64,000 bases of DNA from Devosia riboflavina (GTDB taxonomy: Bacteria; Pseudomonadota; Alphaproteobacteria; Rhizobiales; Devosiaceae): assembly GCF_000743575.1 (NCBI RefSeq), contig NZ_JQGC01000007.1, positions 124,001 through 188,000 on the forward strand, given 5' to 3'. This document shows positions 29,363 to 51,798 of this stretch, in pieces. The notes below the pieces were generated by a model, which saw only the letters and a list, made by a program, of their open reading frames with translations, was not told the DNA's origin and searched no databases. Each line of letters starts with the position of its first letter. Position 1 is the stretch's first letter. Made by a program: the position numbers and the translations under genes.

Positions 29363-29401
29363 TTGCATACGAATGCAAAATAGTTGTGCATACGTATGCG
29401 T
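29363..29401. promoter_or_regulatory. paired operators of the TTGCATACGAATGCAA regulon before the importer-amidase operon
   Basis: Site 1, TTGCATACGAATGCAA (29363-29378), and site 2, GTGCATACGTATGCGT (29386-29401), whose inner 12 bp are a perfect palindrome. Centres are 23 bp apart. The same CG-centred sequence recurs at 35411, 38651, 44812 and 51783. It is the only promoter of the set with two sites. The rest of the gap 29228-29478 shows no gene. Confidence 0.8.
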
Positions 29402-29478
29402 TGGGAACGCGGTAGAGCTGGAAGCGGCCGCCGTATGATGCAGGGGTACGCGGGTGCCCAAAGCCAGGAGAACGAAAA

Positions 29479-30717
29479 ATGAAGCCCATCCTTATGCTTG
29501 CCGTCTCGACGATTGCCTTGGCCCTGGGGGCGGGCGCTGCCTATGCGGAATGCGGTATAGAAGCTGGTTCCGTGCGCATTCTGAGCAATGATTTCGAAGC
29601 TCTTCGCGCCATCAACGCGGCCGCGCAAGAATGTGCCTCCGGCACTGTGACGGTGACTGCCAATGCCACCACCGAACACAAGAACCTGCAGGTTCCGGCG
29701 CTGAGCATCAATCCTGCCGAATACACCGTTGCCGTTGTCGCCAACAATTCGATTGTCCCGCTGCTCAATGACGACCTGATCCGCCCGCTCGACGATCTGA
29801 TCGCTCAATATGGCCAGGCCCTGCAGCCGAGCCAGCTCGTCAAGATTGACGGCAACACTATGGCTATTGCCTTCATGGGCAATGGTCAGCACCTGTTCTA
29901 TCGCAAGGATATTTTGGAAGAGGCCGGTATTGAGCCGCCAAAGTCCTACGATGACATCCTGGCCGCCGCTCAGATCATTAGGGACAAGGGACTGCTCGAG
30001 CATCCGCTCGGCGCGTCGGTGAAGCCGGGCTGGGATCTCGCCGCAGAGTTCGTGAATGACTATCTCGGCACGGGTGCCGAATTCTTCGCGCCCGGTTCGG
30101 CGGAACTCGCCATCGACAATCCTGAAGGCCGCAAGGTTCTCGAAGTCATGCGTGCCATGACCGCCTTTATGGATCCGGACTACCTGACCTATAGTGCGGA
30201 CGAACTGATCAAGGAATATGAAGCCGGCAACATCGCCATCATGGTCGCCTGGGGATCCCTGGCCGGCGCCGTGCTCGACGATCAAGGCGCTGCCGAGGGT
30301 GTCGTCGAGAACACGGTGCTTACAGCGGCTCCAACCATCAATGGCGGTACCATTCCGGCCGCCGCATTGTGGTGGGATGGTTTTACCATCGCCAAGAACA
30401 TCACCGACGAAGACGCTGCAGCCTCCTTCCAGGCGATGGTGCATGGCATCAGCCCGGACATGATGAACGCCAACAAGGAAGCTGCGACCTGGTTGATCCA
30501 GGGCTATGAGCCTGGTCCCGCCGCCATCGGCGTCGTTGACAATGCCAATGGCGGCGCCCGTCCTTACCCGATGCAGCCCTATATGGGGCTCCTTCACACG
30601 GCGCTCTCGACCGAACTGGCCGAATTCATCGCTGGATCGGAAGACGCCGAGCAGGCGCTGGCCGACGTCAAGGCAGCCTACGATACCGCTGCGAAGGAAG
30701 CCGGCTTCCTCCAATAG
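29479..30717 (+). CDS. ABC transporter substrate-binding protein (family 1)
   Basis: 412 aa, start with AGGAGAACGAAAA upstream. Signal peptide MKPILMLAVSTIALALGAGAA, cleavage near YA-EC. The mature protein has family 1 features (FLYRKDI-like LFYRKDILEEAGIEPPKSYDD, IMVAWGSLAGAV). First gene of the operon 29479-35367 with two permeases, an ATPase and an amidase, led by two copies of the regulon operator. An amidase in the operon suggests an amide-containing or N-acylated carbohydrate-like ligand (inference). Confidence 0.92.
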   Translation: MKPILMLAVSTIALALGAGAAYAECGIEAGSVRILSNDFEALRAINAAAQECASGTVTVTANATTEHKNLQVPALSINPAEYTVAVVANNSIVPLLNDDLIRPLDDLIAQYGQALQPSQLVKIDGNTMAIAFMGNGQHLFYRKDILEEAGIEPPKSYDDILAAAQIIRDKGLLEHPLGASVKPGWDLAAEFVNDYLGTGAEFFAPGSAELAIDNPEGRKVLEVMRAMTAFMDPDYLTYSADELIKEYEAGNIAIMVAWGSLAGAVLDDQGAAEGVVENTVLTAAPTINGGTIPAAALWWDGFTIAKNITDEDAAASFQAMVHGISPDMMNANKEAATWLIQGYEPGPAAIGVVDNANGGARPYPMQPYMGLLHTALSTELAEFIAGSEDAEQALADVKAAYDTAAKEAGFLQ

Positions 30718-30738
30718 GTCCTCTTCGGACGATATCAG

Positions 30739-30763
30739 GCTTCTCCCTTTCGCAGGGAGAAGC
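30739..30763 (+). repeat. hairpin between binding-protein and permease genes
   Basis: GCTTCTCCC (30739-30747) pairs with GGGAGAAGC (30755-30763) around a 7-base loop, 22 bp after the binding-protein stop. No T run. It probably stabilises the binding-protein message or lowers expression of the downstream permeases. Confidence 0.5.
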
Positions 30764-30876
30764 ATTCGGACCGGTTGCGGCTTCGGCGCCGGTCTTGTCC
30801 GCAATACGGGGCTTTGCATTGGCATCGATCTGCCGAATGCTAGCACCCGTCGCGCGGCGCATCAGAGGTGGCAGGC

Positions 30877-31908
30877 ATGCCGAACAAGACCTTCTTTGCT
30901 TTCATCCTGCCATCGCTTATCGCCATGGTGTTGTTTATCGCCCTGCCGATCGTGTCTGTGGTCGTGCAATCTTTGTATGTCGCGCACGAGCGCGTCATGG
31001 TGCAGGTGGAAAATTGCCAGCCCTTCGGCGGATGCTCCACCGAGCTGCGCGTCGACGCCGCAGCAACTGCCGAACTGCAGCGCGAGCAACCCCTTGGGCG
31101 CTTCAATGGCCTTGGCACCTATTTCAATCGTGCGCACCTGGCGACGGACGAACTCGGCGCTATCCTTTCGAGCGATCGCAGCTTTGACCAGAAGGTCGCA
31201 CAGATATTCAATCTGCCCTTCTACAAGGCGCTGATTTTCACGCTGGTCTACTGCTTCGTGGTGACGCCGCTCGCCATGGCGCTGGGTTTCGCCATTGCGC
31301 TCGCTGTCAATGCTCTGCCCAAGGTCACCAAGGGGCCGATCATATTCTTCTCGCTGCTACCCATGATCATCACGCCGCTGATCGGTTCGCTGATCCTTTA
31401 CTGGATGTTGAGCCCCAATGGCATTCTGGGCGCCACGATCCAGCACATCTTCAACGATCCAACGCTCTCATTGCGCGCCTCGCCGGTGCTTACCTGGACC
31501 GCGCTGCTGGTCTATGGCGTCTGGACCAATGGCCCGTTTTCTTTTGTCGTCTTCTATGCCGGCCTGCAGACGGTGCCGGCCGATACGCTGGAATCGGCCA
31601 TGATCGACGGCGCCTCGCGCTGGGAGCGCATTCGCTACGTCATCATCCCGCATCTGGCGCCGCTCGCGACCTTTGTGGCGCTTGTCCAGTTGATGGATAA
31701 TTTCCGCGTCTTCGAACCCATTGTCGGCTTCTCCGCCGAGGCCAATGCCACCTCGCTCAGCTACCTGATCTACAATGATCTTTCCGGCGATGCGCAGCAG
31801 TTCGGATCGGCCGGTGCCACTTCGGTGATCACCATTATCGGTGTCGTAATCCTCCTCATGCCGGTGCTGATCCGCACCTGGCGCGAATTCAAACTCAAGG
31901 CGGTGTGA
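30877..31908 (+). CDS. sugar ABC transporter permease (MalF-like, with periplasmic insert)
   Basis: 343 aa from ATG 30877; a GTG at 30868 is possible. The first membrane segment (FFAFILPSLIAMVLFIALPIV) is followed by a hydrophilic insert of about 70 residues (two cysteines in NCQPFGGCST) before the next segment, as in MalF-type subunits with a periplasmic domain. EAA loop TLESAMIDGASRWERIRYVI. It pairs with the next permease to form the membrane pore. Confidence 0.9.
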   Translation: MPNKTFFAFILPSLIAMVLFIALPIVSVVVQSLYVAHERVMVQVENCQPFGGCSTELRVDAAATAELQREQPLGRFNGLGTYFNRAHLATDELGAILSSDRSFDQKVAQIFNLPFYKALIFTLVYCFVVTPLAMALGFAIALAVNALPKVTKGPIIFFSLLPMIITPLIGSLILYWMLSPNGILGATIQHIFNDPTLSLRASPVLTWTALLVYGVWTNGPFSFVVFYAGLQTVPADTLESAMIDGASRWERIRYVIIPHLAPLATFVALVQLMDNFRVFEPIVGFSAEANATSLSYLIYNDLSGDAQQFGSAGATSVITIIGVVILLMPVLIRTWREFKLKAV

Positions 31909-31910
31909 TC

Positions 31911-32795
31911 ATGTCGGATGCTGTTGCACAAAAGCGCCCACTTGCCCTCAATGCCATCATCTATGGCTTCATCGTTTTGTGGGTAATCCTCGCTGCGGTT
32001 CCCTTCTTTTGGACGGTGTGGGGCTCATTCAAAGTCGAAGCGGACTTTTTCTCTCGCGAAAGCTGGTGGAACGCCATTTTTGGTACCAGTACCACCCGTC
32101 AGACTGGCAACGCCTTTACCGGCGCGGGCTACTATGGCGCTTGGGTTTTGCGCGATTTCTGGCGAGCTGCCGGCAATACCATCATCGTCACCGTCTGCGT
32201 CACCGTCATCTCGCTGACCCTCGGCACGCTCGGCGGCTATGCTCTGGCACGTTCGGGGCGCAACTACGCCTTCTGGATTTTGATCGCGGCCTTGGTCTTC
32301 CGGGCCATGCCGCACATCACGCTGGTTTCTGGCTATCTACTGCCGTTCTTCCAGCTCAATATCTGGGGGGTGTTGCCGACCTCGATCATCGTTCTCGTAG
32401 CGATCAACCAGCCCTTCACCCTGTGGATGCTGCACTCTTTCTTTCTCTCGATCCCCAAGGATCTCGATGAAAGCGCCATGGTTGATGGCTGTACCCGTTT
32501 CCAGGCTTTCCGCCTTGTCATCATGCCGGTGATGTGGCCCGGCGTCGTGACCACCGGGCTCTTCAGTTTCCTCCTCGGCTACAATGACTTTGCGGTGACC
32601 GCGATGCTTCTCAGTGCGGAGAACCAGACCATGGTGCCGAAAATCTCGAGCTTTCTCGGCTCGATCCAGGAAACCGGCAATGTCATGTATGCCGTGGCTG
32701 CCGTGGTTTCGGCCACAGTGCCGCTCTTCATCCTTGTTCTCTTCTTCCAACGCCAGATCGTCAGCGGCCTGACCGCCGGCGCAGTGAAAGGCTGA
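31911..32795 (+). CDS. sugar ABC transporter permease (MalG-like)
   Basis: 294 aa from ATG 31911, just after the upstream TGA. Six hydrophobic segments, EAA loop DLDESAMVDGCTRFQAFRLV and the usual C-terminal QIVSGLTAGAVKG. ATP-driven import subunit; the ATPase gene follows 5 bp later. Confidence 0.92.
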   Translation: MSDAVAQKRPLALNAIIYGFIVLWVILAAVPFFWTVWGSFKVEADFFSRESWWNAIFGTSTTRQTGNAFTGAGYYGAWVLRDFWRAAGNTIIVTVCVTVISLTLGTLGGYALARSGRNYAFWILIAALVFRAMPHITLVSGYLLPFFQLNIWGVLPTSIIVLVAINQPFTLWMLHSFFLSIPKDLDESAMVDGCTRFQAFRLVIMPVMWPGVVTTGLFSFLLGYNDFAVTAMLLSAENQTMVPKISSFLGSIQETGNVMYAVAAVVSATVPLFILVLFFQRQIVSGLTAGAVKG

Positions 32796-32800
32796 TCCCG

Positions 32801-33850
32801 ATGGCCCAGATCCGTCTCAAGAACGTCTCCAAGCGCTGGAACAATTTTGTCGGCGTCGACAATTTCAACCTCGACATCGCAGACCAGGAATTTTTGGTCC
32901 TGCTCGGCCCGTCAGGCTGTGGCAAGACCACGACCATGCGCATGATCGCTGGACTCGAAGAAATCACCGAGGGTGAAATCTGGATCGGCGATCGGCTGGT
33001 CAACAAGCTCGAGCCCAAGGACCGGGACATCTCCATGGTGTTCCAGAGCTATGGGCTTTATCCGAACATGACGGTCTACGAGAACATCCGCTTTCCCTTG
33101 AAAGTGCGAAAAGTGCCGCAGGAGCAGCACCATGAGCGTGTCATGGCAGCCAGCAAGATGGTCGAACTCGACGATTTCCTGCAGCGTCGTCCTGCCGCCC
33201 TGTCGGGTGGTCAGCGTCAGCGCGTCGCCCTTGCCCGCGCCATTGTACGCGAACCCAATGCTTTCCTCATGGACGAGCCGCTGTCGAACCTCGACGCGAA
33301 ACTGCGCGTTTCGACGCGCGCCCAGATCAAGAACCTGCATCACACACTCAAGCGCACCACCATCTATGTGACGCATGACCAGATCGAAGCCATGACGCTG
33401 GCCGATCGTGTCGTCGTCATGAGCAAGGGGCTGGTGCAGCAGGTCGGCACGCCGATGGAAATCTACGACCGGCCGGCCAATACGTTTGTTGCGAGCTTCA
33501 TCGGCTCACCGGCGATGAATCTGATCAAGGGTTCGATCGAGGGTGGAGTCTTCACCAGCGAAGGCATTCGCATCGAGGGGCTGACCTTGGCGGCGAAGGG
33601 CCCGGTGACGCTTGGTTTCCGGGCCGAAGATGCCAGCCTTGCGCAAGCGAGTGGGCAGATCGAAGCGCCGATCTATACGGTGGAGCTGCTGGGTGACGCG
33701 ACCATGCTGTCCATGCGTGTGGCAGGAGAACTCGTCTCGATCAAGGTCAACAAGGATTATCGCGCCGAGATTGGGGAATTGGCGCGCGTCGCCATTCCTG
33801 CCTCTGCCTGCCATCTCTTTGATCATTCGACCGGTGCACGGATCGCCTGA
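32801..33850 (+). CDS. sugar ABC transporter ATP-binding protein (UgpC/MalK-like)
   Basis: 349 aa. Walker [11 protein letters not shown]-loop VFQSYGLYPNMTV, signature LSGGQRQR, Walker [15 protein letters not shown]-loop VTHDQIEA, then a TOBE/OB C-terminal domain (LGFRAEDASLA onward). Fourth gene of the importer operon; the amidase gene begins 2 bp after it. Confidence 0.94.
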   Translation: MAQIRLKNVSKRWNNFVGVDNFNLDIADQEFLVLLGPSGCGKTTTMRMIAGLEEITEGEIWIGDRLVNKLEPKDRDISMVFQSYGLYPNMTVYENIRFPLKVRKVPQEQHHERVMAASKMVELDDFLQRRPAALSGGQRQRVALARAIVREPNAFLMDEPLSNLDAKLRVSTRAQIKNLHHTLKRTTIYVTHDQIEAMTLADRVVVMSKGLVQQVGTPMEIYDRPANTFVASFIGSPAMNLIKGSIEGGVFTSEGIRIEGLTLAAKGPVTLGFRAEDASLAQASGQIEAPIYTVELLGDATMLSMRVAGELVSIKVNKDYRAEIGELARVAIPASACHLFDHSTGARIA

Positions 33851-33852
33851 CC

Positions 33853-35367
33853 ATGTCCAGCAACGACACGTCCGAGCGGCTTGCCTATTTCCAGGATCGG
33901 GTCGTCGCAGCCGGGCTCAAGCTTTACGAAAGCGAGGTCGAGGGACTGTTTGGCCTCGCCGCCTGGATGAGCGATGGTCTGACGGAGATGGCCGGCGCCG
34001 GGTCGGATGAGGACATCCTCGATCTCGACATCGCCGAGCTCGGCCGCCGCCTGCGCGACGGACGTCTATCCTCTTTGGGGCTGGTAGAGAGGACTTTGCG
34101 GCGGATAGCCGAGTGCGATCCTGCCTATCTGGCATTTTATGCCGTGGCCACCGATCAGGCTCTTGCGAACGCGACCAAGGCGGATGCCGAACTGGGCGCA
34201 GGGCATGACCGCGGGCCGTTGCATGGTATTCCTGTCGGCATCAAGGACATGATCGATGTTGCGGGTCTCGCGACCACAGCCAATGCACCTGGGCGCCGCG
34301 ATGCGCTGGCGGTCGAAGACGCTGAGGTGGTCAAGCGTCTCCGCGAAGGCGGCGCTGTGATCATTGGCAAGCTCGCGACCTATGAATGGGGCACGGTCGG
34401 CCCAGACAAGCGCGGCCTGTTTCCACCGGCGCGTAATCCCTGGAGCCTGGAACACATCACTGGTGGCTCGTCCTCAGGCTGTGCCGTGGCGGTTGCGGGA
34501 GGGCTTTTGCGCACCAGTATTGGCTCGGATACGGGCGGCTCCGTACGCGGACCGGCTTTCTACTGCGGCGTTGTCGGATTCAAGCCGACTACTGGCTCTG
34601 TCTCCAAGCACGGCGCCCTGACCATGTCCCCGAGCATGGACCATATAGGCCCGATGAGCCGCACCGTTGCCGAGGCGGCGGTAACGTTTGATGTGATTGC
34701 CGGCAGGAGCGGGGAGGAGGCGGCAACTCGGCTCCTTGGCCGGCCTGTTGCAGGTTTGAAGATTGGCTATGCGCGGAACTGGTTCGCTTGTGATCATCAG
34801 GTCATGCCGGCGGTGGTTGTTGCGGTGGACGCAGCTGTCTCGCTTCTGAGCCAGCTCGGTGCAGAGGTCACCGAGATCGAGCTGCCGGACTATCCGTCGC
34901 TGGAAGTCGCGGCGGCAGCGATCCTCCATAAGGAAAGCTTTGATTTCCACGCGGACGCTTTGCGCAATCATCCCGAGGCCTATGGTCGTCGCGCCTTTCT
35001 CAGCCTTGCTGCCGGCTTTGCCGTCACCGATGCGGAACTGGCAACGGCGCGGCAGATCGGCAGCGATTTCACCCGGGCGGTCAACCGTCTATTGACGGGA
35101 TCTGATGTCATAGTCACGGTCGGCGCCTTGACCACAGCCCTCGAAGTCGCGCGGTTTGAAAAGGAAGCCGTGTGGACGCCGATGCGCACCATCGGATTCA
35201 ACATCTCCGGCCATCCGGTTCTAGCCATGCCAGTGGGTTTTCACGAAGGCCTGCCGATCGGTATGCAGATCGTCGGGCGGCACGATGATGAGGCCCGGGT
35301 TGTTCAGGTCGGTCATGCCTTTGAACAGGCGAGTGATTTCAGCCTGCAGCGTCCGCCGAAACCCTAG
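33853..35367 (+). CDS. amidase (amidase signature family)
   Basis: 504 aa. The Ser-cisSer-Lys machinery is visible: Lys in GIPVGIKDMIDVAG, Ser in TGGSSSGCAVAV and the nucleophile Ser in DTGGSVRGPA. The family core starts near residue 55; an extra N-terminal ~50 residues have no motif I know. No signal peptide, so cytoplasmic hydrolysis of an amide. Its position directly behind the importer ATPase implies that the imported compound, or an early intermediate, carries an amide bond. Confidence 0.9.
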   Translation: MSSNDTSERLAYFQDRVVAAGLKLYESEVEGLFGLAAWMSDGLTEMAGAGSDEDILDLDIAELGRRLRDGRLSSLGLVERTLRRIAECDPAYLAFYAVATDQALANATKADAELGAGHDRGPLHGIPVGIKDMIDVAGLATTANAPGRRDALAVEDAEVVKRLREGGAVIIGKLATYEWGTVGPDKRGLFPPARNPWSLEHITGGSSSGCAVAVAGGLLRTSIGSDTGGSVRGPAFYCGVVGFKPTTGSVSKHGALTMSPSMDHIGPMSRTVAEAAVTFDVIAGRSGEEAATRLLGRPVAGLKIGYARNWFACDHQVMPAVVVAVDAAVSLLSQLGAEVTEIELPDYPSLEVAAAAILHKESFDFHADALRNHPEAYGRRAFLSLAAGFAVTDAELATARQIGSDFTRAVNRLLTGSDVIVTVGALTTALEVARFEKEAVWTPMRTIGFNISGHPVLAMPVGFHEGLPIGMQIVGRHDDEARVVQVGHAFEQASDFSLQRPPKP

Positions 35368-35410
35368 TCCACCAAGAAATGTGATGATTGGCATCACATT
35401 TGTTGCAATC

Positions 35411-35426
35411 ATGCATTCGTATGCAT
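35411..35426. promoter_or_regulatory. operator of the TTGCATACGAATGCAA regulon before the HisD-SDR-LacI operon
   Basis: ATGCATTCGTATGCAT; its reverse complement ATGCATACGAATGCAT differs from the 29363 and 38651 sites only at the two ends. It lies 30 bp before the start of the first HisD-family gene, in the 89-bp gap after the amidase gene. Confidence 0.8.
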
Positions 35427-35456
35427 AAAGTCTGATTGAACCATAAGGAGCTTCCG

Positions 35457-36788
35457 ATGCCGATCTGGCTGAAGCGAGGTAAGGCGGTTGATGAGCGGGC
35501 GGAGGCTGATCGTCAGGTTCGCTCGACGGTCGAGGGGATTCTGGCCGATATCGAAAAGCGCGGTGACGCAGCGGTGCGGGACCTGTCGCAGAAGTTCGAC
35601 AAGTGGGAGCGGCCGGATTTCCGGCTGAGCCAGCAGGAGATCGACGATTGCATCGCGCAATTGACCGATCAGGATCTCGATGACATCGCCTTTGCCCAGA
35701 CCCAGGTGCGCAACTTCGCCCAGAAGCAGAAGGACACGATGCTCGAACTCAGCGTCGAGACCCTGCCGGGGGTCACGCTGGGCCACAAGCATGTGCCGAT
35801 CAATGCGGTGGGCTGCTATGTGCCGGGCGGCAAGTATCCGCTGCTGGCCTCGGCCCATATGTCGGTTCTTACGGCCAAGGTGGCCGGTTGCCCGCGCGTC
35901 ATCACCTGCGCGCCGCCCTTCCATGGCAAGCCGGCCCCGGCGATTGTCGCGGCCCAGGCCATGGCCGGTGCCGATGAGATCTATGTGCTCGGCGGCATCC
36001 AGGCGATCGGCGCCATGGCCATCGGCACGGAAAGCATTTCGCCGGTGGACATGCTGGTTGGCCCGGGCAATGCCTTTGTGGCCGAAGCCAAGCGCCAGCT
36101 TTATGGTCGCGTCGGCATCGACCTCTTTGCCGGCCCGACCGAGACGCTGGTGATCGCCGACGAGACGGTCGACGGGGAACTCTGCGCCACCGATCTTCTC
36201 GGCCAGGCCGAGCATGGTCCCACGAGCCCGGCGATCCTGCTCACCAATTCGGAGAAGCTGGCACGCGACACCATGGCGGAGATCGAACGCATTCTCGCCA
36301 TTCTGCCGACGGCCGACATGGCACGCAAATCCTGGGAGGACTTTGGTGAAGTCATCGTCTGCGAGAGCTATGAAGAGATGCTGGCCGAAGCCGACCGCAT
36401 CGCTTCGGAACATGTGCAGGTGATGACCGATCGCGATCTGTGGTTCCGGGACAATATGACCAATTTTGGTGCCCTGTTCCTGGGGCCGCGGACCAATGTG
36501 GCCTATGGCGACAAGGTGATCGGCACCAATCACACCCTGCCCACCATGAAGGCGGCGCGCTATACCGGCGGCCTCTGGGTCGGAAAGTTCCTCAAGACCT
36601 GCACCTGGCAAACGGTGACGACCGATGAGGCCTCGGCCCGGATCGGCGCCTATGGCTCGCGCCTCTCGATGCTGGAAGGCTTTGTCGGCCATGCCGAACA
36701 GGCCAATATCCGCGTGCGCCGCTATGGCGGCCGCAATGTGCCCTATGGTACCGCTGCCGCACCGACAGCAGAGGCCGCCAAGGAATGA
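35457..36788 (+). CDS. histidinol dehydrogenase-family oxidoreductase (HpsN-like)
   Basis: 443 aa from ATG 35457, with AAGGAG 6 nt upstream. Full HisD fold: [34 protein letters not shown], zinc-type residues in LLGQAEHGP, catalytic Glu-His in [15 protein letters not shown] and a C-terminal VGHAEQAN. No histidine biosynthesis gene is nearby. The sequence style is that of HpsN, the NAD-dependent sulfopropanediol dehydrogenase branch, so it probably oxidises a primary alcohol to a carboxylate on a polyol-like substrate (inference). First gene of a three-gene operon with an SDR and a LacI regulator. Confidence 0.9.
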
Positions 36789-37549
36789 CGCTTCCCCGCA
36801 CGCCCAGTTTTCGTCTCGATGGCAAGCGCGCCCTGGTGACCGGTGGCACGCGGGGCATCGGGCTGGGCGCGTCGGTGGCTCTGGCCGAAGCGGGGGCGCA
36901 TGTGACCGTGGCGGCCCGCACCGCCGGTGATGTCGAAAAGGTCGTCAATGCCATGGCCGATATTGGCCTCATGGCTGAGGGCGTCGCCATCGACATCACC
37001 GACTTTGCCGCCATCCGCGCCTTTATCGAAGAGAGCGAGCCCTTCCATGTGCTGGTCAACTCGGCCGGCACGGCCCGGCACAGTGCCATTGCCGGGATCA
37101 CCGAGCCCGACTATCAGGCGGTGATGCAGCTCAATCTCGCCGCGACGGTTTTCGTATCCCAGGCGGTTGTCGGAAAGCTGCAGCAGGCGGGGCAGGGCGG
37201 CTCGATCATCAATGTCTCCTCGCAGATGGGTCATGTCGGTGGTCCCAACCGCGCCATTTATGCGGCGAGCAAACATGCTGTTGAAGGTCTCAGCAAGGCC
37301 ATGGCCATCGAGCTGGGGGCCAGCAATATTCGGGTCAACACGGTGTGCCCGACCTTTATCGAGACCGAGCTGACGGCCGGCAATCTCAGCGATCCCGACT
37401 TCCGATCCTGGGTTCTGTCCAAGATCAAGCTGGGGCGCCTGGGCCGGGTGGAGGACATTATGGGGCCGGTGGTTTTCCTGGCCTCGGACGCGGCGGCGCT
37501 GATCACCGGCACGGCGCTCTTGGTGGATGGCGGATGGACAGCGGAGTAA
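36785..37549 (+). CDS. short-chain dehydrogenase/reductase (SDR)
   Basis: 254 aa, start overlapping the HisD-family stop by 4 bp. Classical SDR: cofactor motif [22 protein letters not shown] with catalytic Ser, YAASKHA with catalytic Tyr and Lys, and C-terminal [15 protein letters not shown]. It interconverts a hydroxyl and a ketone with NAD(P). Translational coupling with the HisD-family gene suggests that the two act on the same polyol at different carbons, as SDRs do alongside HpsN in dihydroxypropanesulfonate breakdown (analogy only). Confidence 0.92.
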
Positions 37550-38604
37550 AAAAGCCGGGGGTGACCTCATCGGAAGTGGCGCGCCGCGCCGGCGTGTCGC
37601 AATCGGCTGTCTCCCGCACTTTTACCCCCGGTGCCTCCATTGCCCCAAAGACCCGGGCCAAGGTCCTGGCTGCGGCCAAGGAACTGGGCTATCGGCCCAA
37701 TGCCATTGCCCGCTCGCTGATCACCAATCGCTCGCGCATCATTGCCGTGGTGATGGCGTATCTGGAAAACCTCTTCTATCCCGATGTGCTCGAAGAGCTG
37801 GGCCGGCTTCTTGCCAAGGAAGACTATCGCCTCTTGCTGTTCACCGGTTTTATGGATCGGGACAGCGACCCGGTCTTTGACCAGCTCATGCAATATCGTG
37901 TCGATGGCATTGTGCTGGCGTCGACCTCGCTGTCCTCGGAACTCTCCGAGGAATGTGCCGCCGCCGGCATTCCGGTGGTGCTGTTCAACCGCACCACCGA
38001 GCGCGATGCGGTCTCGAGCGTGACGACGCGCAATCGCGAGGGTGGGCGCCGCGTTGCCGAGTTCCTGATTGCCGGTGGGCACAAGCGGTTCGGCTATATC
38101 TCGGGTCTTGAAAGCTCCTCGACCAATCGCGATCGTTTTGGCGGCTACCAGGAGGCTCTCGCTGCGGCCGGGCATACCGATATCATCATCGAGGTCGGCA
38201 ATTACGATCGCGCCGAAGCCGAAACGGCGGCGCGCAAAATGCTGAAGCGTCCCGATCGTCCCGATGCCATCTTCGTGGCCAATGACCATATGGCCGTTGC
38301 GGTGATGGACATCGCGCGGCACGAACTGGGCCTCTCCATTCCCGAGGACCTTTCCATTGTCGGCTATGACGATGTGGGTCCCGCCCGCTGGACCTCCTAT
38401 GGCATCACCTCGATGAGCCAGCCGCTCAAGCGCATGGTGGAGGCCACCGTCGCCATCCTAATGGATCAGATCGCCAGCGGCGAGATCGAAGCCGAGCACC
38501 GCATCCTCAATGGCGAACTCGTCGTCAGGACCTCCGCAAGAATGCCCAAGGCCGGTGTGGTCGAGGTCGACGGACGACGTATCTACAAACCCGCAAAGAG
38601 CTGA
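37534..38604 (+). CDS. LacI family transcriptional regulator, probable regulator of the TTGCATACGAATGCAA regulon
   Basis: 356 aa from ATG 37534, inside the end of the SDR gene (16-bp overlap). HTH VTSSEVARRAGVSQSAVSRTFT, hinge YRPNAIARSLITNRSRIIAV, effector domain ending DLSIVGYDDVGPARWTSYGITSM. The gene sits in an operon whose promoter carries the regulon operator, and that 16-bp site is CG-centred and palindromic as LacI-family operators are. It is the only LacI gene inside the set of operons carrying the site, so it is the best candidate for both regulation of the set and autoregulation. Confidence 0.92.
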   Translation: MDSGVKKPGVTSSEVARRAGVSQSAVSRTFTPGASIAPKTRAKVLAAAKELGYRPNAIARSLITNRSRIIAVVMAYLENLFYPDVLEELGRLLAKEDYRLLLFTGFMDRDSDPVFDQLMQYRVDGIVLASTSLSSELSEECAAAGIPVVLFNRTTERDAVSSVTTRNREGGRRVAEFLIAGGHKRFGYISGLESSSTNRDRFGGYQEALAAAGHTDIIIEVGNYDRAEAETAARKMLKRPDRPDAIFVANDHMAVAVMDIARHELGLSIPEDLSIVGYDDVGPARWTSYGITSMSQPLKRMVEATVAILMDQIASGEIEAEHRILNGELVVRTSARMPKAGVVEVDGRRIYKPAKS

Positions 38605-38650: not shown

Positions 38651-38666
38651 TTGCATACGAATGCAA
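38651..38666. promoter_or_regulatory. operator of the TTGCATACGAATGCAA regulon before the bicupin operon
   Basis: TTGCATACGAATGCAA, identical over 16 bp to the site at 29363; the identity extends outwards to ATA before and AA after. It lies 35 bp before the bicupin start at 38702. Two identical 20-base copies 9.3 kb apart in non-coding DNA are not expected by chance. Confidence 0.85.
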
Positions 38667-38701: not shown

Positions 38702-39748
38702 ATGACCCAGAGCAAGACTTGGACTCAGTCCGAAATGGAAAAGCGCATGGTGCGCTATGCCGATCTGAAGGGGTTGCGCAACGCGTTCATCGACGCGCGG
38801 ACGCCGGGCTCGGACCGCAAGGAAAACTTCACCATTATCGGGCCGGGTGTGAGTGAGAATCCGGCCCAGGTCGTGCACATTCCGGAAGCCCATGGTTTCA
38901 ATTTTGGCGCTGCCCGCCAGCCCTTTGGTTGCACCAATTCCCAGCACTCGCACCTGACCGCGGAAACCTTCCTCGTACACTCGGGCAAATGGCGCTTCGT
39001 CTTTGGGGCCAACAAGGACGAGGGCTATCTCGACGTTGAACCGGGCGATGTGGCGACCGTACCGACCCACATGTTCCGCGGCTTTGAAAAGCGCGATGAA
39101 GGCACGGGATTCCTCGCCGTCGTGCTCGGTCATGACGATCCGGGCAAGGTGGTATGGGCGCCGAGCGTCTTCAAAATGGCCGAGGATTTTGGCCTGAAAC
39201 TGCTCAAGGGCGGCAAGCTGATCGATACGACGCTGGGCGAAAAGGTGCCGGAAGGCGCTGAACTCGAGCAGCCGCCGAACGCTGAAAAGCTCAAGGAATT
39301 GGCAACCCCGCCGATGTCCGAATTGGCGAAATATGCCATCAAGGCCGCGGATATCAAGGGCGACCCGAATTCGCCGCTTGCCGGTGAAGGCGTTGAAGAA
39401 GCTGGCGTTATCGGCGATGTCGACGGCCAGGACGGCATTAAGGCCGGGCCGATCGTCGGCCACTGGAAACACGATTTTACGCTGCGCCGCTTCAAGCTCG
39501 AAACCGGTGCTGTCATTCCCGTTCATGCCCGTTCCGAGCAAGAAGTGCTCTTCGTGCAGTCTGGTACACTGGAATTCAACTGGGATGGCGGCTCGCTCAT
39601 CCTTGGCGCTGGCGACACGCTGACCGTGCCGGTTGGCCTGATGCATGGCTTCCGTAATCCGGCTTCGGCCGATGCGATCGTCTTCGTTATCCGTGGTGCC
39701 GCCTCGCCGGCCGCCCCGCAGTTCGCAACGGCTCAGGCTGCGGAGTAA
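38702..39748 (+). CDS. bicupin family protein
   Basis: 348 aa from ATG 38702 with AGAGGA upstream. Two cupin modules: the first around residues 75-140 (HSHLTAETFLVHSGKWRFVFG, with two His and a Glu as metal ligands, then GDVATVPTHMFRGFE), the second around 265-335 (IPVHARSEQEVLFVQSGTLEF, GDTLTVPVGLMHGFRN). This layout occurs in metal dioxygenases of the gentisate/quercetinase type and in sugar isomerases; it is not enough to choose. First gene of an operon with the MetE-C-like and RraA-like genes and under the regulon operator. Confidence 0.85.
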   Translation: MTQSKTWTQSEMEKRMVRYADLKGLRNAFIDARTPGSDRKENFTIIGPGVSENPAQVVHIPEAHGFNFGAARQPFGCTNSQHSHLTAETFLVHSGKWRFVFGANKDEGYLDVEPGDVATVPTHMFRGFEKRDEGTGFLAVVLGHDDPGKVVWAPSVFKMAEDFGLKLLKGGKLIDTTLGEKVPEGAELEQPPNAEKLKELATPPMSELAKYAIKAADIKGDPNSPLAGEGVEEAGVIGDVDGQDGIKAGPIVGHWKHDFTLRRFKLETGAVIPVHARSEQEVLFVQSGTLEFNWDGGSLILGAGDTLTVPVGLMHGFRNPASADAIVFVIRGAASPAAPQFATAQAAE

Positions 39749-39752
39749 ACCA

Positions 39753-40894: not shown

Positions 40895-41596
40895 ATGGCA
40901 AAGATATCGTCCGACGCCCTTTCGGCCCTGCGCAAAGCCGACACACCGACCGTATGCAACGCGCTGGAGCATGTCATGGGCGGACGCACCGCCGAGGGCT
41001 TTACCAAGCATCCGGTAGTCTGTGCTGATCCCAGCCTACCCCCGGTGGTAGGCTTTGCGCGTACGGCCAAAATCCGCGCCTCTTCGCCGGCCCAGAAGCC
41101 GGCGGTCGAGGTGCGGGCCCTCCGCATGCAGTATTATGAATATGTCTCGGCGGGCGAGGGGCCGACCGTTGCGGTCATCGAAGACGCTGATTGGCCCCAT
41201 GTCATCGGTGGCTTCTGGGGGGAAATGCAGGTGGCTCAGCACAAGGGGCTGGGCGTTGCTGGCACCGTCACCAATGGCGTGCTGCGCGATCTCGGTATGC
41301 TCGATGAGGGCTATCAGGTGATCGCCGGCGCCGTCGGACCAAGCCACGCTTTCGTGCATGTGACGGAGCTTGATTGCCCCGTCACTATCTTCGGCATGAC
41401 CGTACGGCCAGATGATCTGATCCATGCCGATCGTCATGGCGCTGTGGTCGTTCCTGCCGAGCACATCGAGCGCATGCCCTGGGCAATCGATGTCGTAATG
41501 CGCAAGGAAGTGCCGATCCTTTCGGCGGCGCGGGCTCCAGGTTTCAATATCGAAAAGCTACGCGCCGCTTGGCTCGAGGCCGACAAGATCAGCTAA
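40895..41596 (+). CDS. RraA/HMG-CHA aldolase family protein
   Basis: 233 aa from ATG 40895, with GAGGAG 7 nt upstream. RraA-like fold: DTPTVCNALE near the N-terminus, GGFWGEMQVAQHKGLGVAGT and the active-site segment TNGVLRDLGML, which keeps the Arg-Asp pair. Family members are 4-hydroxy-4-methyl-2-oxoglutarate/oxaloacetate-type lyases or RNase E inhibitors; in a catabolic operon an aldolase or decarboxylase is more likely. It overlaps the end of the convergent SDR gene by 8 bp. Confidence 0.87.
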   Translation: MAKISSDALSALRKADTPTVCNALEHVMGGRTAEGFTKHPVVCADPSLPPVVGFARTAKIRASSPAQKPAVEVRALRMQYYEYVSAGEGPTVAVIEDADWPHVIGGFWGEMQVAQHKGLGVAGTVTNGVLRDLGMLDEGYQVIAGAVGPSHAFVHVTELDCPVTIFGMTVRPDDLIHADRHGAVVVPAEHIERMPWAIDVVMRKEVPILSAARAPGFNIEKLRAAWLEADKIS

Positions 41597-42494: not shown

Positions 42495-42594
42495 GGTGTA
42501 TCCCTATCTTTGCGTGATAGCAGCAGACCTATTGCGCAGCGGTCCGGCGAAAAAGCCGGGACGTTATAATGGTATGGCGACTAACAGGCTCGGC

Positions 42595-43404: not shown

Positions 43405-43432
43405 AAAGGCCGGCGTTTCCGCCGGCCTTTTT
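43404..43432. terminator. strong bidirectional rho-independent terminator
   Basis: AAAAGGCCGGCG (43404-43415), loop TTTC, CGCCGGCCTTTT (43420-43431) plus another T. The GC core is flanked by an A run on one side and a T run on the other, so it can stop transcription from both the XRE gene and the convergent second HisD-family gene, whose stop lies 3 bp further on. Confidence 0.92.
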
Positions 43433-43434
43433 GC

Positions 43435-44724
43435 CTAGTTTGCCTTAGCCTGCATGCGATCGAGGCGCAGTTGGGCGGCGCGGCGGTGGCCTTCGAGGCC
43501 TTCGCTGGCGGATTGGCGGGCGGCAGGTGGGGCGACCTGCTTGACGCCTTCTTCGTCGAGCCACTGGTGAGTGGCGATTTTCACATAGGCACCCACCCAG
43601 AGGCCGCCGGTATAGGCGCCTGCGCCCATGGTGGGGAGGGTGTGGTTGGTGCCCGAGCACTTGTCGGAATAGACGACGCTGGCGAGTTCGCCAATGAACA
43701 AGCTGCCGTAATTCCTCAGCTTTTTGGCGAAGGCCTGGGCGTCCGCGGTATGGACCTGCAGGTGTTCTGCGGCGATCAGGTCGGAATAGGCGATCATTGC
43801 GGCTTCGTCCTCGCAGACGGTGATTTCGCCATAGTTGATCCAGGCTTCGCGGGCGGTATTGGCCGTGGAGAGCGTCTGGAGCTGGGCTTCGACTTCCTTG
43901 AGCACGGCTTCGGCCAAGGCCTTGTCGGTGGTGATGAGGCCGACGCGGGTGCGGATGTCGTGTTCGGCCTGGGCGAGGAGGTCCGTCGCGATCATTTCAG
44001 CATCGCCGGTCTTGTCGGCGACGACGAAAATCTCTGATGGGCCAGCGAGTTGGTCGATGCCGACGGGGCCGAAGACCTGACGCTTGGCTTCGTTGACGAA
44101 AGCATTGCCGGGGCCGACGATCTTGTTGACGGCCGGAACGGTCTCGGTGCCATAGGCCATGGCGGCGATAGCCTGGGCGCCACCGATACGGAAAATCCTA
44201 TCCGCGCCAGAAAGATGGCAGCCGGCGATCATGGCCTTGTGGGCATTGGGCGGAAGGCAGGCGATGACTTCGTCGACGCCGGCAACCTTGGCCGGCACGA
44301 TTGTCATGATCGGGGCGGAGAGCAGCGGATAGCGGCCGCCGGGAACATAGCAGCCGACGCGGTGGATGGGGATGACGCGGTGGCCCATGTGGACACCCGG
44401 CAAGGTTTCCACCTCGAGCGGCAGGATGGTAGCGAGCTGCGCCTGGGCAAATTTGCGAACATTTTCAATAGCAAATTCGGTATCTCGGCGCGTTTGCGGA
44501 TCGAGTTCGGCAAGTGCGGCTTCTCGTTCGGCCGGGGTGACCTCGAAGACGTCGATGTCGGACTTGTCGAACTTGGCCGAATATTCCCGTACCGCCTTGT
44601 CGCCATTGGCGCGGACATTGGCGATGATCTCGGCGACCAGGGTTTCGACCGGCGCATTGTCGCTGATCGAGGAGCGCTCGGGCGCCTTCACATAGGTGAC
44701 GCCGGGGAAGGGGGAATTGGTCAT
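43435..44724 (-). CDS. histidinol dehydrogenase-family oxidoreductase, second copy
   Basis: 429 aa from ATG 44724, with GGAG 9 nt upstream; a TTG at 44760 is less likely. HisD signature stretches: GCYVPGGRYPLLSAPIM, GPGNAFVNEAKRQVFG, zinc-type LLAQAEHDI, catalytic Glu-His in [16 protein letters not shown]. The C-terminus reads EGHRRAAQL, where the other copy (35457-36788) has VGHAEQAN. The two copies have clearly diverged and probably oxidise different alcohols of one pathway. Divergent from the hydrolase-NTF2 fusion gene, with a regulon operator and a second palindrome between. Confidence 0.9.
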   Translation of the reverse strand: MTNSPFPGVTYVKAPERSSISDNAPVETLVAEIIANVRANGDKAVREYSAKFDKSDIDVFEVTPAEREAALAELDPQTRRDTEFAIENVRKFAQAQLATILPLEVETLPGVHMGHRVIPIHRVGCYVPGGRYPLLSAPIMTIVPAKVAGVDEVIACLPPNAHKAMIAGCHLSGADRIFRIGGAQAIAAMAYGTETVPAVNKIVGPGNAFVNEAKRQVFGPVGIDQLAGPSEIFVVADKTGDAEMIATDLLAQAEHDIRTRVGLITTDKALAEAVLKEVEAQLQTLSTANTAREAWINYGEITVCEDEAAMIAYSDLIAAEHLQVHTADAQAFAKKLRNYGSLFIGELASVVYSDKCSGTNHTLPTMGAGAYTGGLWVGAYVKIATHQWLDEEGVKQVAPPAARQSASEGLEGHRRAAQLRLDRMQAKAN

Positions 44725-44763
44725 TGCATCGGTCTCCGAAACGATAGCGGGGGACGGCAATGC

Positions 44764-44780
44764 GTTAGCAGACTGCTAAC
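44764..44780. promoter_or_regulatory. perfect 17-bp palindrome before the second HisD-family gene
   Basis: GTTAGCAG (44764-44771), A, CTGCTAAC (44773-44780). It lies 40 bp upstream of the minus-strand start at 44724 and is distinct from the regulon operator at 44812. Probably a binding site for another regulator; which one is unknown. Confidence 0.55.
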
Positions 44781-44811
44781 ATCTGGCGTCTCCTTTGGGC
44801 TGAGAATGTTC

Positions 44812-44827
44812 TTGCATACGTATTCAA
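44812..44827. promoter_or_regulatory. operator of the TTGCATACGAATGCAA regulon in the divergent region
   Basis: TTGCATACGTATTCAA, palindromic except for one G-to-T change in the right arm relative to the consensus. It is roughly midway between the divergent starts of the second HisD-family gene (44724) and the hydrolase-NTF2 fusion (44933), so one site may control both. Confidence 0.75.
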
Positions 44828-44932
44828 AATTTGCCAGAGTTTTTTGGTGAGGAGCGCTTCGATCTTTCGTCGAAGCCCAGCCCGTGACCGATAGCGATGA
44901 ATAGTCAGGCCCATTCCGATCCGGAGCGAAAA

Positions 44933-46831
44933 ATGGCGGGTGCGCGTGCCGTGCCGCTGCTCCTCTTGCCGGGCACGGTGTGTGACGAGCGGCTGTTTGC
45001 GCCTCTGCTGGCCGAACTTGATCACCACGATATCCGCGTGCTGCCGATGACCGGCGCGACGACGACACCGGAGCTTGCGGCAAGGCTTTTGGAGATGGCG
45101 CCGGAGCGGTTCGCGCTGCTCGGTTTTTCGCTTGGCGGTATCGTGGCGCTCGAAATGGCGGCACAGGCGCCGGAGCGGATCGAGCGTCTGGCGCTGCTCG
45201 ACACGACGGCCGCACCTGATCCCGAGGCCAACGCCGGAACGCGTCGCGCCGCTGCCGAAAAGGCGCGGGGCGAGGGGATGGATGGATATATTCTCGATAG
45301 CTGGCATAAGCTCGTTTCGCCTGCCAACGCGGGGGACGAAAAGCTACTCGAAGCCATTCTCGCCATGGCGCGTGATGCCGGCGCGGAGGTTTTGGCCGCG
45401 CAGTCGGAAGTCGCCATTCACCGTAAGGACAGCAGAAGACGGCTCGGCACTATGGGGATGCCAGTGCTGATCCTTGCGGGTGAAGATGAAAAGATCTGCC
45501 GCCTCGAAGGCCATGAAGAGCTCGCCGCCGGCATCGCCGGCGCGCGCTACTTCACCATTCCGAAATCCGGGCATTTCAGCCCGCTTGAAAATCCGGCCGC
45601 GGTGGCGCGTCATGTGCGCGACTGGTTGAGCTGGCCTCCCGAAAAATTCTCGAACGAGCCGTCACAGACCCAAGGAGCGGAAATGAGCGACGCAACGAGC
45701 AATCCCAAGACCAAGGGCGCTTCGCCCGTCGCCGTGGAAAACGTGCTGCAGGTCGAGCGCCACGACTATCCCGACCTGGCACCGACCAATCGTCCGCGGT
45801 CGCAGTCCCTGGCTGGGTTCGATGAGATCTATACCGACATCGTCGACTACATCATTCGCTGCACCCATAAGATCTGGGACGAACGCGATATCGGCCTGAT
45901 CTACACGCACTACACGCATAACTGCGTGCTCTATGGCACCACCGGCACGATCTATAATCGCGAAGACGTGGTGCGCGACACCATTCAGCGCCTGGTTTCC
46001 TTCCCCGAGCGCCGCGGCATGGGCACCCAAGTGATCTGGAACGGCAATGACAAGGATGGTTTTTATACCAGCCATCTCGTGACTGGCTCGGGCCGCCACA
46101 CTCAATATGGTCATCTCGGCCAGCCGACGGGGCGCCCCTTCGTCAGCCGCACGATTGCCGACTGCATGATTTTTGAGAACAAGATCTATCGCGAATGGGT
46201 CGTGGCCGACACCATGGCCATCATTCAGCAGCTTGGTCTCGACCCGCACCACTTTGCCATGAAGACGGCCAAGTCCAAGTTCGATGCGGGACTGATCTCG
46301 CTCGACATCGGCGAAAACCGCCGCTTCCTCGGCCAGACGCCGCCGGCGGAAAAGGCCGATACGTCGCTCGCGCATAACGACGTGGAAGCGCAGACGATCG
46401 AAATGCTGCACGAGGTCTTCACCAAACGCATGTTCGGCCGTATCGCCCAGGATTATGCGCCGAACGCGCAGTATCATGGGCCGCTGATGAAGGAACTCTA
46501 TGGCCACGCCGCCATCATCCATCAGCATCTGGGCCTAATTGGCTCCCTGCCGGACGCGAGTTTCGAAGTCCAGCATGTTGCCTCCAATCCCTGCGACGAA
46601 GGCGGCACCAAGGTTGCCGTCCGCTGGATCATGGAAGGTCATCACCTGGGCTATGGTATTCTCGGCACGCTGGGCGACCCGACCGGCAAGCGCGTGCAGG
46701 TAATGGGCATGAGCCATTATCACTGGAAGAACGGCAAGATTGTCGACGAGTGGAATGTCTATGACGAGTTGAGCCTGCTGGTGCAGGTGAAGCTCGGCCA
46801 GTTGGCAGCTGAAGTAGGCTTGGCGCAATAG
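44933..46831 (+). CDS. alpha/beta-hydrolase fused to a double NTF2/SnoaL-like protein
   Basis: 632 aa from ATG 44933 (GGAG 6 nt upstream); ATG 44897 adds 12 residues. Residues ~1-235 form an alpha/beta-hydrolase: LLLLPGTVCDERLF, nucleophile elbow LLGFSLGGIVAL, late acid in LILAGEDEKI and His in PKSGHFSPLENP. After a linker, residues ~280-632 carry two NTF2/SnoaL-like domains (DIVDYIIRCTHKIWDERDIG; EMLHEVFTKRMFGRIAQDYA). A paralogue of this second half is a separate protein at 51810-53096. An in-frame ATG at 45683 has its own AAGGAG, so a free 382-residue NTF2 protein may also be made. Confidence 0.85.
   Translation: MAGARAVPLLLLPGTVCDERLFAPLLAELDHHDIRVLPMTGATTTPELAARLLEMAPERFALLGFSLGGIVALEMAAQAPERIERLALLDTTAAPDPEANAGTRRAAAEKARGEGMDGYILDSWHKLVSPANAGDEKLLEAILAMARDAGAEVLAAQSEVAIHRKDSRRRLGTMGMPVLILAGEDEKICRLEGHEELAAGIAGARYFTIPKSGHFSPLENPAAVARHVRDWLSWPPEKFSNEPSQTQGAEMSDATSNPKTKGASPVAVENVLQVERHDYPDLAPTNRPRSQSLAGFDEIYTDIVDYIIRCTHKIWDERDIGLIYTHYTHNCVLYGTTGTIYNREDVVRDTIQRLVSFPERRGMGTQVIWNGNDKDGFYTSHLVTGSGRHTQYGHLGQPTGRPFVSRTIADCMIFENKIYREWVVADTMAIIQQLGLDPHHFAMKTAKSKFDAGLISLDIGENRRFLGQTPPAEKADTSLAHNDVEAQTIEMLHEVFTKRMFGRIAQDYAPNAQYHGPLMKELYGHAAIIHQHLGLIGSLPDASFEVQHVASNPCDEGGTKVAVRWIMEGHHLGYGILGTLGDPTGKRVQVMGMSHYHWKNGKIVDEWNVYDELSLLVQVKLGQLAAEVGLAQ
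45672..45685 (+). promoter_or_regulatory. internal ribosome binding site and start codon within the fusion gene
   Basis: AAGGAG (45672-45677) stands 5 nt before an in-frame ATG (45683-45685) at the junction between the hydrolase and NTF2/SnoaL parts. The spacing is ideal and better than that of the gene's own start. It probably marks the start of a once separate gene that became fused by loss of a stop, and may still be used. Confidence 0.65.
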
Positions 46832-50579: not shown

Positions 50580-51778
50580 AGGTCGATGTAGCGATTGTGG
50601 GCGGCGGGCCGGCCGGGCTCGGTGCCGCCATGGCACTGCGAAAGGCTGGTATCGAACGCGTCGTGGTGATCGAGCGCGAGCCCGAGGCGGGTGGTGTGCC
50701 GCGCCATTGCGGGCATCCCGCCTTTGGCATGCGTGAATTCGGCAGGCTGATGAGTGGTCCTTCCTATGCACGGGCGCTGGTGCGGCGGGCCGTTCAGGCT
50801 GGTGTCGAGATTTTGACGCGACATTCGGTGGTGGCGTTGCAGCCTGAGGGGCGGTTGATGGTTGCCAATCCCGCCGGTAGCCTGGAGATCGTTGCGCGGC
50901 GCGTGGTTCTCGCGACCGGCGCGCGCGAAATGAGCCGGGCGGCGCGGCTGGTGGGCGGCGATCGGCCGCTCGGTGTCATGAATACCGGCGCGTTGCAGGC
51001 TTATATCTATCTGCAGGGGCTGGCGCCGTTTCGACGTCCGGTGATCGTCGGCACGGAACTGGTGAGCCTGTCGTCCATCTGGACCTGCATGGCGCACGGC
51101 ATTCGGCCGCAAGCCATCGTCACTGGCGGCGACCAGGCGGTCGCGCGATGGCCGCTGGGATTTTTTCCGCACCTGCTGGGCATTCCCGTGCACTATCGGG
51201 CGCAGGTACAAGCCATTGGCGGTGTTGGGCGGGTCGAGAGCGTTGCGGTAGTGCGCGAGGGCCGCGGGGCGGTCGAGATTGCCTGTGATGGCGTCTTGCT
51301 GACCGGGCAGTTCATTCCGGAATCGAGTCTGGCGCGGTTAAGTCATATCGTCGTGGACAGAGCCAGCGGCGGGCCGGCAGTCGATCAGGTTCATCGCTGC
51401 TCCGATCCCGTCTATTTCGCCACCGGCAATCTGCTACGTGGCATCGAGACCGCCGGCTGGTGCCATCGTGAAGGCCTGGCCCTGGGCAAACGCGTAGCCG
51501 AAGATTTGGCGCGCGACAGGCCTAAGGGGGCGCAGGTGTCCGTCTCGGTCAGCGCGCCATTCAAGTTCTCCGTGCCGCAGCGCCTGGCTGCTGACGTCGC
51601 CAGCGCGCCCGATTTGCAACTTCGCCTGACGGAACCGGTGTCGGGCACGCTGGTCGTCGAAAGTGGGGGCAGGGCGCTCTATCGCCGCCCCTTGCGCAGC
51701 AGGCCGGAGCGACGCATTCTCGTGCCGATCCAGCATTTGGCCGGCGCGCGCGAGCCCATAACCATCCGCATCGAGTAG
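50576..51778 (+). CDS. FAD/NAD(P)-dependent oxidoreductase (GlpB/opine-oxidase-alpha-like flavoprotein)
   Basis: 400 aa from ATG 50576. N-terminal VDVAIVGGGPAGLGAAMALRK; second nucleotide-binding region RPVIVGTELVSLSSIWTCMA; YFATGNLLRGIETAGWCHREG near the end. Such proteins act as the second subunit beside a DAO-type dehydrogenase and pass electrons onward. The 4-bp overlap with the GlpA-like gene suggests a heteromeric dehydrogenase with one FAD in each subunit plus the iron-sulfur centre. Confidence 0.88.
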   Translation: MKVDVAIVGGGPAGLGAAMALRKAGIERVVVIEREPEAGGVPRHCGHPAFGMREFGRLMSGPSYARALVRRAVQAGVEILTRHSVVALQPEGRLMVANPAGSLEIVARRVVLATGAREMSRAARLVGGDRPLGVMNTGALQAYIYLQGLAPFRRPVIVGTELVSLSSIWTCMAHGIRPQAIVTGGDQAVARWPLGFFPHLLGIPVHYRAQVQAIGGVGRVESVAVVREGRGAVEIACDGVLLTGQFIPESSLARLSHIVVDRASGGPAVDQVHRCSDPVYFATGNLLRGIETAGWCHREGLALGKRVAEDLARDRPKGAQVSVSVSAPFKFSVPQRLAADVASAPDLQLRLTEPVSGTLVVESGGRALYRRPLRSRPERRILVPIQHLAGAREPITIRIE

Positions 51779-51782
51779 TAAG

Positions 51783-51798
51783 ATGCATACGAATGCTG
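51783..51798. promoter_or_regulatory. operator of the TTGCATACGAATGCAA regulon before the second NTF2/SnoaL gene
   Basis: ATGCATACGAATGCTG in the 31-bp gap between the flavoprotein stop (51778) and the NTF2/SnoaL start (51810). The right arm is slightly degenerate. Because the gap is so short, a promoter would have to lie inside the flavoprotein gene, or the site acts as a roadblock within an operon. Confidence 0.7.

Follow-up and report, generated by a model that had tools for sequence, protein, structure and literature searches.

The survey of 1173 LacI-family regulators by Ravcheev et al. (2014; PMC4052901) assigns 96% of effector classes to carbohydrates, and its main text contains none of the terms histidinol, hisD and SnoaL. 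A second relevant system is HpsN, the sulfopropanediol (DHPS) 3-dehydrogenase (PDB 8v35 and 8wwe), in which, according to the available text of PMC11382572, the motif G-R-Y-A/S-H carries the sulfonate-binding residue His126 and Lys353 also contacts the sulfonate. The locus considered here lies in a 64,000-nucleotide stretch of Devosia riboflavina DNA (contig NZ_JQGC01000007.1, positions 124,001 to 188,000; hereafter the window, the numbering of which is used throughout), and comprises a gene for a LacI-family regulator, LacI2 (37534..38604, forward strand), together with six operator-like palindromes distributed among the surrounding transcription units. Judged from sequence, the assignment of this locus as an autoregulated LacI-family regulon is well supported; in this soil bacterium a single DNA-binding protein is very probably in control of an entire gene set for the breakdown of a compound, and it can be proposed with high confidence that LacI2 is the local, autoregulated regulator of this catabolic regulon which binds the palindromes. 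As portrayed in the main text of the survey, local LacI regulons resemble the present system in their even 16-bp palindromes centred on CG, their autoregulation, their neighbouring catabolic operons and the spacing of their tandem sites by about two turns of the helix; they differ in their targets, since in place of plain sugar genes the present regulon has genes of HisD-like, SnoaL, cupin and aldolase type.

All six palindromes claimed in the initial annotation were found where it had placed them: O1 (29363..29378; TTGCATACGAATGCAA) before an importer operon; O2 (29386..29401; GTGCATACGTATGCGT), its tandem partner 23 bp further on; O3 (35411..35426) before hisD1-sdr-lacI2; O4 (38651..38666) before bicupin-metE-rraA; O5 (44812..44827) between the divergent hisD2 and hydrolase-double-SnoaL genes; and the operator-like O6 (51783..51798; ATGCATACGAATGCTG) before sno2. 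Searching the window for TTGCATACGAATGCAA with up to three mismatches returned eight strand matches at five places, against 0.45 expected and with none of 100 shuffles reaching eight, while O2 constituted the sixth place. The copies at 29363 and 38651, previously described as identical over about 20 bases, have 21 bases in common (ATATTGCATACGAATGCAAAA), and the CG-centred form that had been ascribed to LacI-family operators is indeed the usual one among the surveyed regulators. With the start codons chosen in this analysis, all six sites are intergenic and lie 11–100 bp before starts: O1 and O2 are 100 and 77 bp upstream of sbp (start at 29479), O3 is 30 bp upstream of hisD1 (35457), O4 is 35 bp upstream of the bicupin gene (38702), O5 is 87 bp from the hisD2 start (44724) and 69 bp from the divergent start at 44897, and O6 is 11 bp before 51810. 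The position of O3 before the operon that includes lacI2 itself implies autoregulation.

A scoring matrix prepared from 124 sites in 31 loci of LacI2 relatives (L028–L055, L085, L087 and L090), with the sites of the window excluded, ranked the six palindromes first to sixth in the window (O1 and O4, 30.05; O5, 29.24; O3, 25.2; O2, 16.1; and O6, the weakest, 14.67), the seventh candidate scoring 3.21; the matrix is sharp by construction, because the relatives' sites were picked by consensus at no more than two mismatches. Frequent occurrence of the motif elsewhere in the genome, which the initial annotation had named as refuting the regulon, was not encountered: in a scan of the 5.05 Mb assembly (113 contigs), TTGCATACGNATNCAA was present with 0–1 mismatch at four places only, three of them in the window (29363, 38651 and 44812) and the fourth on contig 6. 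Relaxation to three mismatches yielded 49 and 48 matches, where the reversed control gave 25 and 29, and with so many chance matches the argument for the two weak sites therefore comes from context and not from sequence alone. Of the 81 genome-wide match places, 77 were scored, the other four being repeats of listed 16-mers, and the top seven consisted of the six claimed sites plus that on contig 6, with the eighth at 12.9.

Downstream of the contig 6 site, at a distance of 17 bp, the hisD1-sdr-lacI2 cassette is present a second time. The two copies are 96.7% identical over 3127 bp in an alignment that begins 4 bp before hisD1, the operator thus falling outside it, and in the 300 bp upstream of the two hisD1 copies the sole clear alignment is the operator stretch itself (29 bp, 86%). 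The DNA upstream of the two cassettes is thus dissimilar apart from the conserved operator. The neighbours of this second cassette (L025 8256–11436; G000:C6:174255 on), which has its own operator, are galactonate-dehydratase-like, aldo/keto-reductase, GntR-like and sugar-importer genes.

LacI2 has relatives in Devosia, Enterobacterales, Rhodobacteraceae, Falsiroseomonas and Burkholderiales. In a sample comprising the loci of the best 80 of 169 relatives, WTGCATNCGNATGCAW was recorded with at most one mismatch in 77 of the 80 loci (187 sites) and with at most two in 78. Twelve composition-matched control palindromes gave 0–2 sites at one mismatch or fewer, in at most two of the 80 loci, and 0–34 sites in 0–26 loci at two mismatches; two earlier control palindromes gave five and nine matches, and a control with its centre changed from CG to GC was uninformative, as true sites match it at two mismatches. 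Most Devosia-like loci carry sites before sbp, hisD1 and the bicupin gene, and between hisD2 and the hydrolase-SnoaL gene, while L028, L038 and L047 contain the hisD1-sdr-lacI2 unit only. In Enterobacterales, two sites lie between a divergent transporter-hisD1-sdr-hydrolase-aldolase-bicupin group and a lacI2-SnoaL-SnoaL-hisD2-amidase group (order from L073), and other gene orders are found in Rhodobacteraceae, Falsiroseomonas and Polynucleobacter. A second site 22–25 bp from the first, as in the O1/O2 tandem, is present in many relatives. Two Burkholderiales loci (L100 and L107) have the three-gene hisD1-sdr-lacI2 unit, together with its site, in the company of other genes, and L059, titled Chryseobacterium, displays the enterobacterial form of the cluster with a LacI2 identity of 59%; its title may be a mislabel.

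The 37534 protein, advanced in the initial annotation, is the best candidate for the binder, to judge by its recognition helix, the arrangement of the genes, its co-occurrence with the site and the presence of an operator before the second cassette too. LacI2, encoded by the third gene of its own operon, has NCBIfam LacI-type matches, a PF00356 helix-turn-helix (HTH) match over the cut-off followed by a periplasmic-binding-protein-like effector domain, the arrangement that defines the family, and CcpA, PurR and LacI as PDB relatives, with near full-length alignment to CcpA chains. Its helix, VSQSAVSR, was conserved in 79 of the 79 relatives with the N-terminus covered (L087 being cut), and among the 34 LacI HTHs of the genome it is confined to LacI2 and its copy, the near helix VSRSAVSR occurring in two further proteins (L154 and L162). 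A tree of 40 rows, drawn up without three LacI proteins of the genome (L149, L158, which is LacI1, and L163) and four HTH-only sequences (L165–L168), grouped the LacI2 relatives with L154, L162 and a pckA-adjacent pair (support 100/99), with several long branches elsewhere being unsure. In Klebsiella, a LacI protein of 44% identity with the helix VSQSAVSR is accompanied by two matching sites (26.1 and 18.1) before its hisD1 homologue, and in stretches with hisD1 homologues and no annotated LacI (L174 and L176; Novosphingobium and Rhizobium) no site scored above 7.6. Across 136 genomes of the family, in which LacI2 was called at E ≤ 1e-100 (43 genomes) and the site as exact WTGCATWCGWATKCAA (47 genomes), 40 had both, three the regulator only, seven the site only and 86 neither (Fisher 1.4e-23, a value that ignores relatedness). 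A further sequence in the window, TTGAAAACGTTTACAA at 56972, precedes another LacI gene (55845–56951) and is possibly that protein's own operator.

A number of observations weigh against the assignment of these sites to LacI2. By sequence alone, 29386 and 51783 are not significant genome-wide, a score of 14.67 being expected in simulated first-order sequence about 0.09 times per 64 kb and about 7 times per genome. The 80 loci were selected by LacI2 similarity and many come from one genus; two of them (L095 and L103) have no site within two mismatches. The regulator is present without the exact site in G327, G347 and G351, the last two of which share coordinates with L028 and L038, where degenerate sites precede hisD1. 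Conversely, the site is present without the regulator in G301, G342, G348, G359, G369, G416 and G418: that of G342 falls within a long open frame, that of G301 precedes a gene outside the regulon, and the genomes G348, G359 and G369 are 55–78% complete. In G416 and G418, a LacI relative adjacent to pckA shares both the helix core and the palindrome, and the motif is for this reason not exclusive to LacI2. In Jannaschia aquimarina (G423; L124–L134) the motif occurs at 14 places, some of them before genes with no evident link. Lastly, no site above 8 precedes the close sno2 relative in L171, the one relative examined; since sno2 follows glpA-like and fad2 genes both here and in L171, it may instead belong to that operon. 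No other genome in a sample of 297 from the order gave a match to sno2 of more than 36% identity.

The pckA-adjacent regulators of G416 and G418 (L122 and L123) merit separate comparison. They share with LacI2 the SQSAVSR core (VSQSAVSR in L123, GSQSAVSR in L122) and a palindrome in tandem, and are placed beside the LacI2 clade (tree support 90/71), but are only 42–43% identical and have phosphoenolpyruvate carboxykinase as their neighbour. The tandem TTGCATACGTATGCAA copies lie 46 bp apart between pckA and the LacI gene (L122 6130–6191; L123 5977–6038), and this related regulator may share the operator. LacI2 does not itself correspond to PckR: the pckA gene of this genome is at C3:95235 and the nearest listed LacI HTH on that contig at 163444, and no listed match within three mismatches lies just before pckA.

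The sequence itself shows where the sites lie, how they are conserved and how they are linked with LacI2 and its helix; from this we infer binding by LacI2, repression rather than activation, and the existence of an inducer. A LacI2 dimer would bind the 16-bp palindrome WTGCATNCGNATGCAW and, without inducer, would repress the importer operon through the tandem sites 23 bp apart, its own hisD1-sdr-lacI2 operon, the operon bicupin-metE-rraA, and hisD2 together with the hydrolase-SnoaL gene divergent from it, with sno2 as a possible further target. Repression would be relieved when an imported compound, or an intermediate derived from it, occupied the periplasmic-binding-protein-like domain.

Three alternative explanations bear on this model. 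That LacI2 is an activator or dual regulator rather than a simple repressor is unlikely, although the dual action predicted for PckR in the main text of PMC4052901 lends the idea some substance, given that a pckA-adjacent LacI has the helix core and operator of LacI2; the location of the sites 11–100 bp before starts, and a TGCTAT-like element that follows the 38651 site in most of 12 aligned rows and fits promoter blocking, argue for repression. As a sigma-70 consensus scan of 29200–45000 found three matches against 4.4 expected from shuffles, none of them at operators, the geometry of repression is therefore taken from distance only. It is markedly less probable that another LacI of the genome, such as LacI1 (28232–29227), binds the sites and that LacI2 is a bystander. 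Only 135 bp separate the end of the LacI1 gene from the first site, the genome encodes 34 LacI HTHs, and LacI1, which was outside the tree sample, shows 37% identity to LacI2 in the region that aligns; its helix, however, is VSSATISR, and it was never the best label for any gene at the 80 loci, themselves chosen by LacI2, so that LacI1 was set back as a candidate by its helix and by this absent linkage. The VSRSAVSR protein L154 has one listed nearby match (C3:249252), which is outside the 16 highest-scoring genomic matches. Least credible of all is the suggestion that the similar sites are a functionless remnant of recent common descent. One genus does supply many of the loci, but the operators are kept while flanking columns diverge: mean column identity relative to the rest of the upstream region was 0.77 vs 0.49 for O1 (24 sequences), 0.89 vs 0.53 for O3 (30 sequences) and 0.95 vs 0.56 for O4 (26 sequences), the weak O2 giving 0.53. 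Moreover, the same palindrome accompanies differing gene arrangements in Enterobacterales, Rhodobacteraceae and Burkholderiales.

The genes that LacI2 would thus control are all on the forward strand with the exception of hisD2. The importer operon consists of sbp (29479..30717), a solute-binding protein of an ATP-binding cassette (ABC) importer with a Pfam SBP_bac_1 match and weak PDB similarity to SmoF (5.6e-7), and of two permeases and an ATP-binding protein (30868..33850) with UgpA-, MalG- and UgpC-like NCBIfam matches, of which the ATP-binding protein alone exceeds its model cut-off. An amidase-family protein (33853..35367; Pfam Amidase, 1.2e-86), less conserved in relatives, is encoded next. 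The HisD/HpsN-like dehydrogenase gene hisD1 (35457..36788) and sdr (36785..37549), identified by profile match as a short-chain dehydrogenase (SDR), precede lacI2. The third operon comprises the bicupin gene (38702..39748), whose product has a Pfam Cupin_2 match in its second half and weak PDB similarity to quercetin dioxygenase, the presence of two cupin halves being a reading of the sequence both in the initial annotation and here; a MetE C-terminal-like protein (39753..40883; Pfam Meth_synt_2, 7.1e-9), which is absent from several Devosia loci that retain the bicupin and rraA genes; and an RraA-like aldolase-family protein (40895..41596; Pfam RraA-like, 1e-17). Thereafter come hisD2 (43435..44724, reverse strand), encoding a second HisD/HpsN-like dehydrogenase, and a gene (44897..46831) whose product joins an alpha/beta hydrolase to a double SnoaL/NTF2 protein, assigned from Pfam and, for the SnoaL part, from its predicted structure. 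In that model (predicted local distance difference test, pLDDT, 84.4) two repeated sets of elements were evident, with the cone-shaped alpha+beta barrel of the SnoaL/NTF2 fold, and Foldseek gave matches of about 140 residues to single SnoaL-like proteins such as IdmH, AclR and SnoaL2, matches which do not distinguish whether both units are involved. In Enterobacter (L073) the hydrolase and SnoaL proteins are encoded by separate genes, and the aldolase is of the HpcH/HpaI rather than the RraA-like type. The second double SnoaL protein, sno2 (51810..53096; Pfam SnoaL), is of uncertain membership.

The proposal that all of these genes serve one pathway was supported: clustering in many genomes speaks for it, as does G330, in which a portion of the set lies elsewhere and retains its sites, although the amidase is poorly conserved outside Devosia-like loci and the membership of 51810 depends on the weak O6, absent in a close relative. 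On the single contig of G330, hisD2, the hydrolase-SnoaL gene and the bicupin gene are some 60–70 kb from lacI2 with sites kept, the hisD2/hydrolase-SnoaL pair (L116) being about 65 kb distant with an O5-type site between its members. G357 was considered as a further split regulon and rejected, as the two pieces of its hisD2 each reach a contig end, so that the split reflects a contig break. Some of the 14 palindromes of Jannaschia aquimarina are followed by SnoaL, importer and hydrolase genes that are separate from lacI2. Between 46917 and 51778, inside the regulon region, is a group of glycerol-kinase-like, GlpR-like, glycerol-3-phosphate-oxidase-like and FAD-protein genes without operators of their own; in L171, glpA-like, fad2 and sno2 directly precede the importer operon.

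Viewed from the enzyme families concerned, the pathway is best read as import, followed by NAD-dependent oxidation of alcohol to carboxylate by the two HisD-type enzymes and the SDR, then ester, lactone or ring opening, and lastly aldol cleavage. The opening step would fall to the hydrolase, cupin and SnoaL proteins, and the final cleavage to the RraA-like protein, or to the HpcH/HpaI protein in Enterobacter. A rival possibility is that the pathway serves sulfopropanediol (DHPS) degradation: the best PDB matches of HisD1 (2.7e-114) and HisD2 (2e-103) are DHPS dehydrogenases, SDR and importer genes adjoin the hisD genes, and alignment with HpsN, a member of the same family, shows that the catalytic Glu, His and Asp (318, 319 and 352) are kept, as is the sulfonate contact Lys353. 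The corresponding motifs, on the other hand, are G-K-Y-P-L in HisD1 and G-R-Y-P-L in HisD2, and because Leu thereby replaces His126 in both enzymes, DHPS degradation is set back despite the retention of Lys353; furthermore, no desulfonating enzyme was recognised among the window proteins that were profile-scanned. It is consequently held to be improbable. Histidinol dehydrogenases of histidine biosynthesis have a different motif, G-S-A-P-L, which shares its last residue, Leu, with the HisD proteins; they gave HisD1 and HisD2 lower PDB scores than did HpsN, while the TIGR00069 score was over the cut-off. Records for hisD1 homologues in Novosphingobium, Klebsiella and Rhizobium did not reveal a substrate.

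Neither this combination of genes nor the pathway was found in the literature searched, which comprised open-licence papers without supplements or RegPrecise. We tentatively suggest, with a confidence that falls a little short of even, that the locus represents a catabolic pathway that is widespread in proteobacteria and has yet to be described. In it, HpsN/HisD-type enzymes of a third branch, one that does not act on sulfonates, would oxidise hydroxymethyl groups on some common compound from plants or plankton, the double SnoaL, bicupin and MetE-like proteins would perform new chemistry, and LacI2 would be a rare non-sugar LacI. The regulator itself is ordinary, and the interest lies in the pathway that its regulon maps out. 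Some HpsN-like enzymes, including one annotated hpsN in a Klebsiella record, are suggested not to be DHPS dehydrogenases, with one residue serving to tell the two apart. With the operator as a guide, members still missing from the set can be sought in further genomes, and the repressor offers a simple substrate screen, in that a compound releasing LacI2 from DNA would probably be the substrate or an intermediate. Enzymes of hitherto unassigned role would thereby be joined in a single co-regulated unit, found repeatedly among the Alpha-, Beta- and Gammaproteobacteria.

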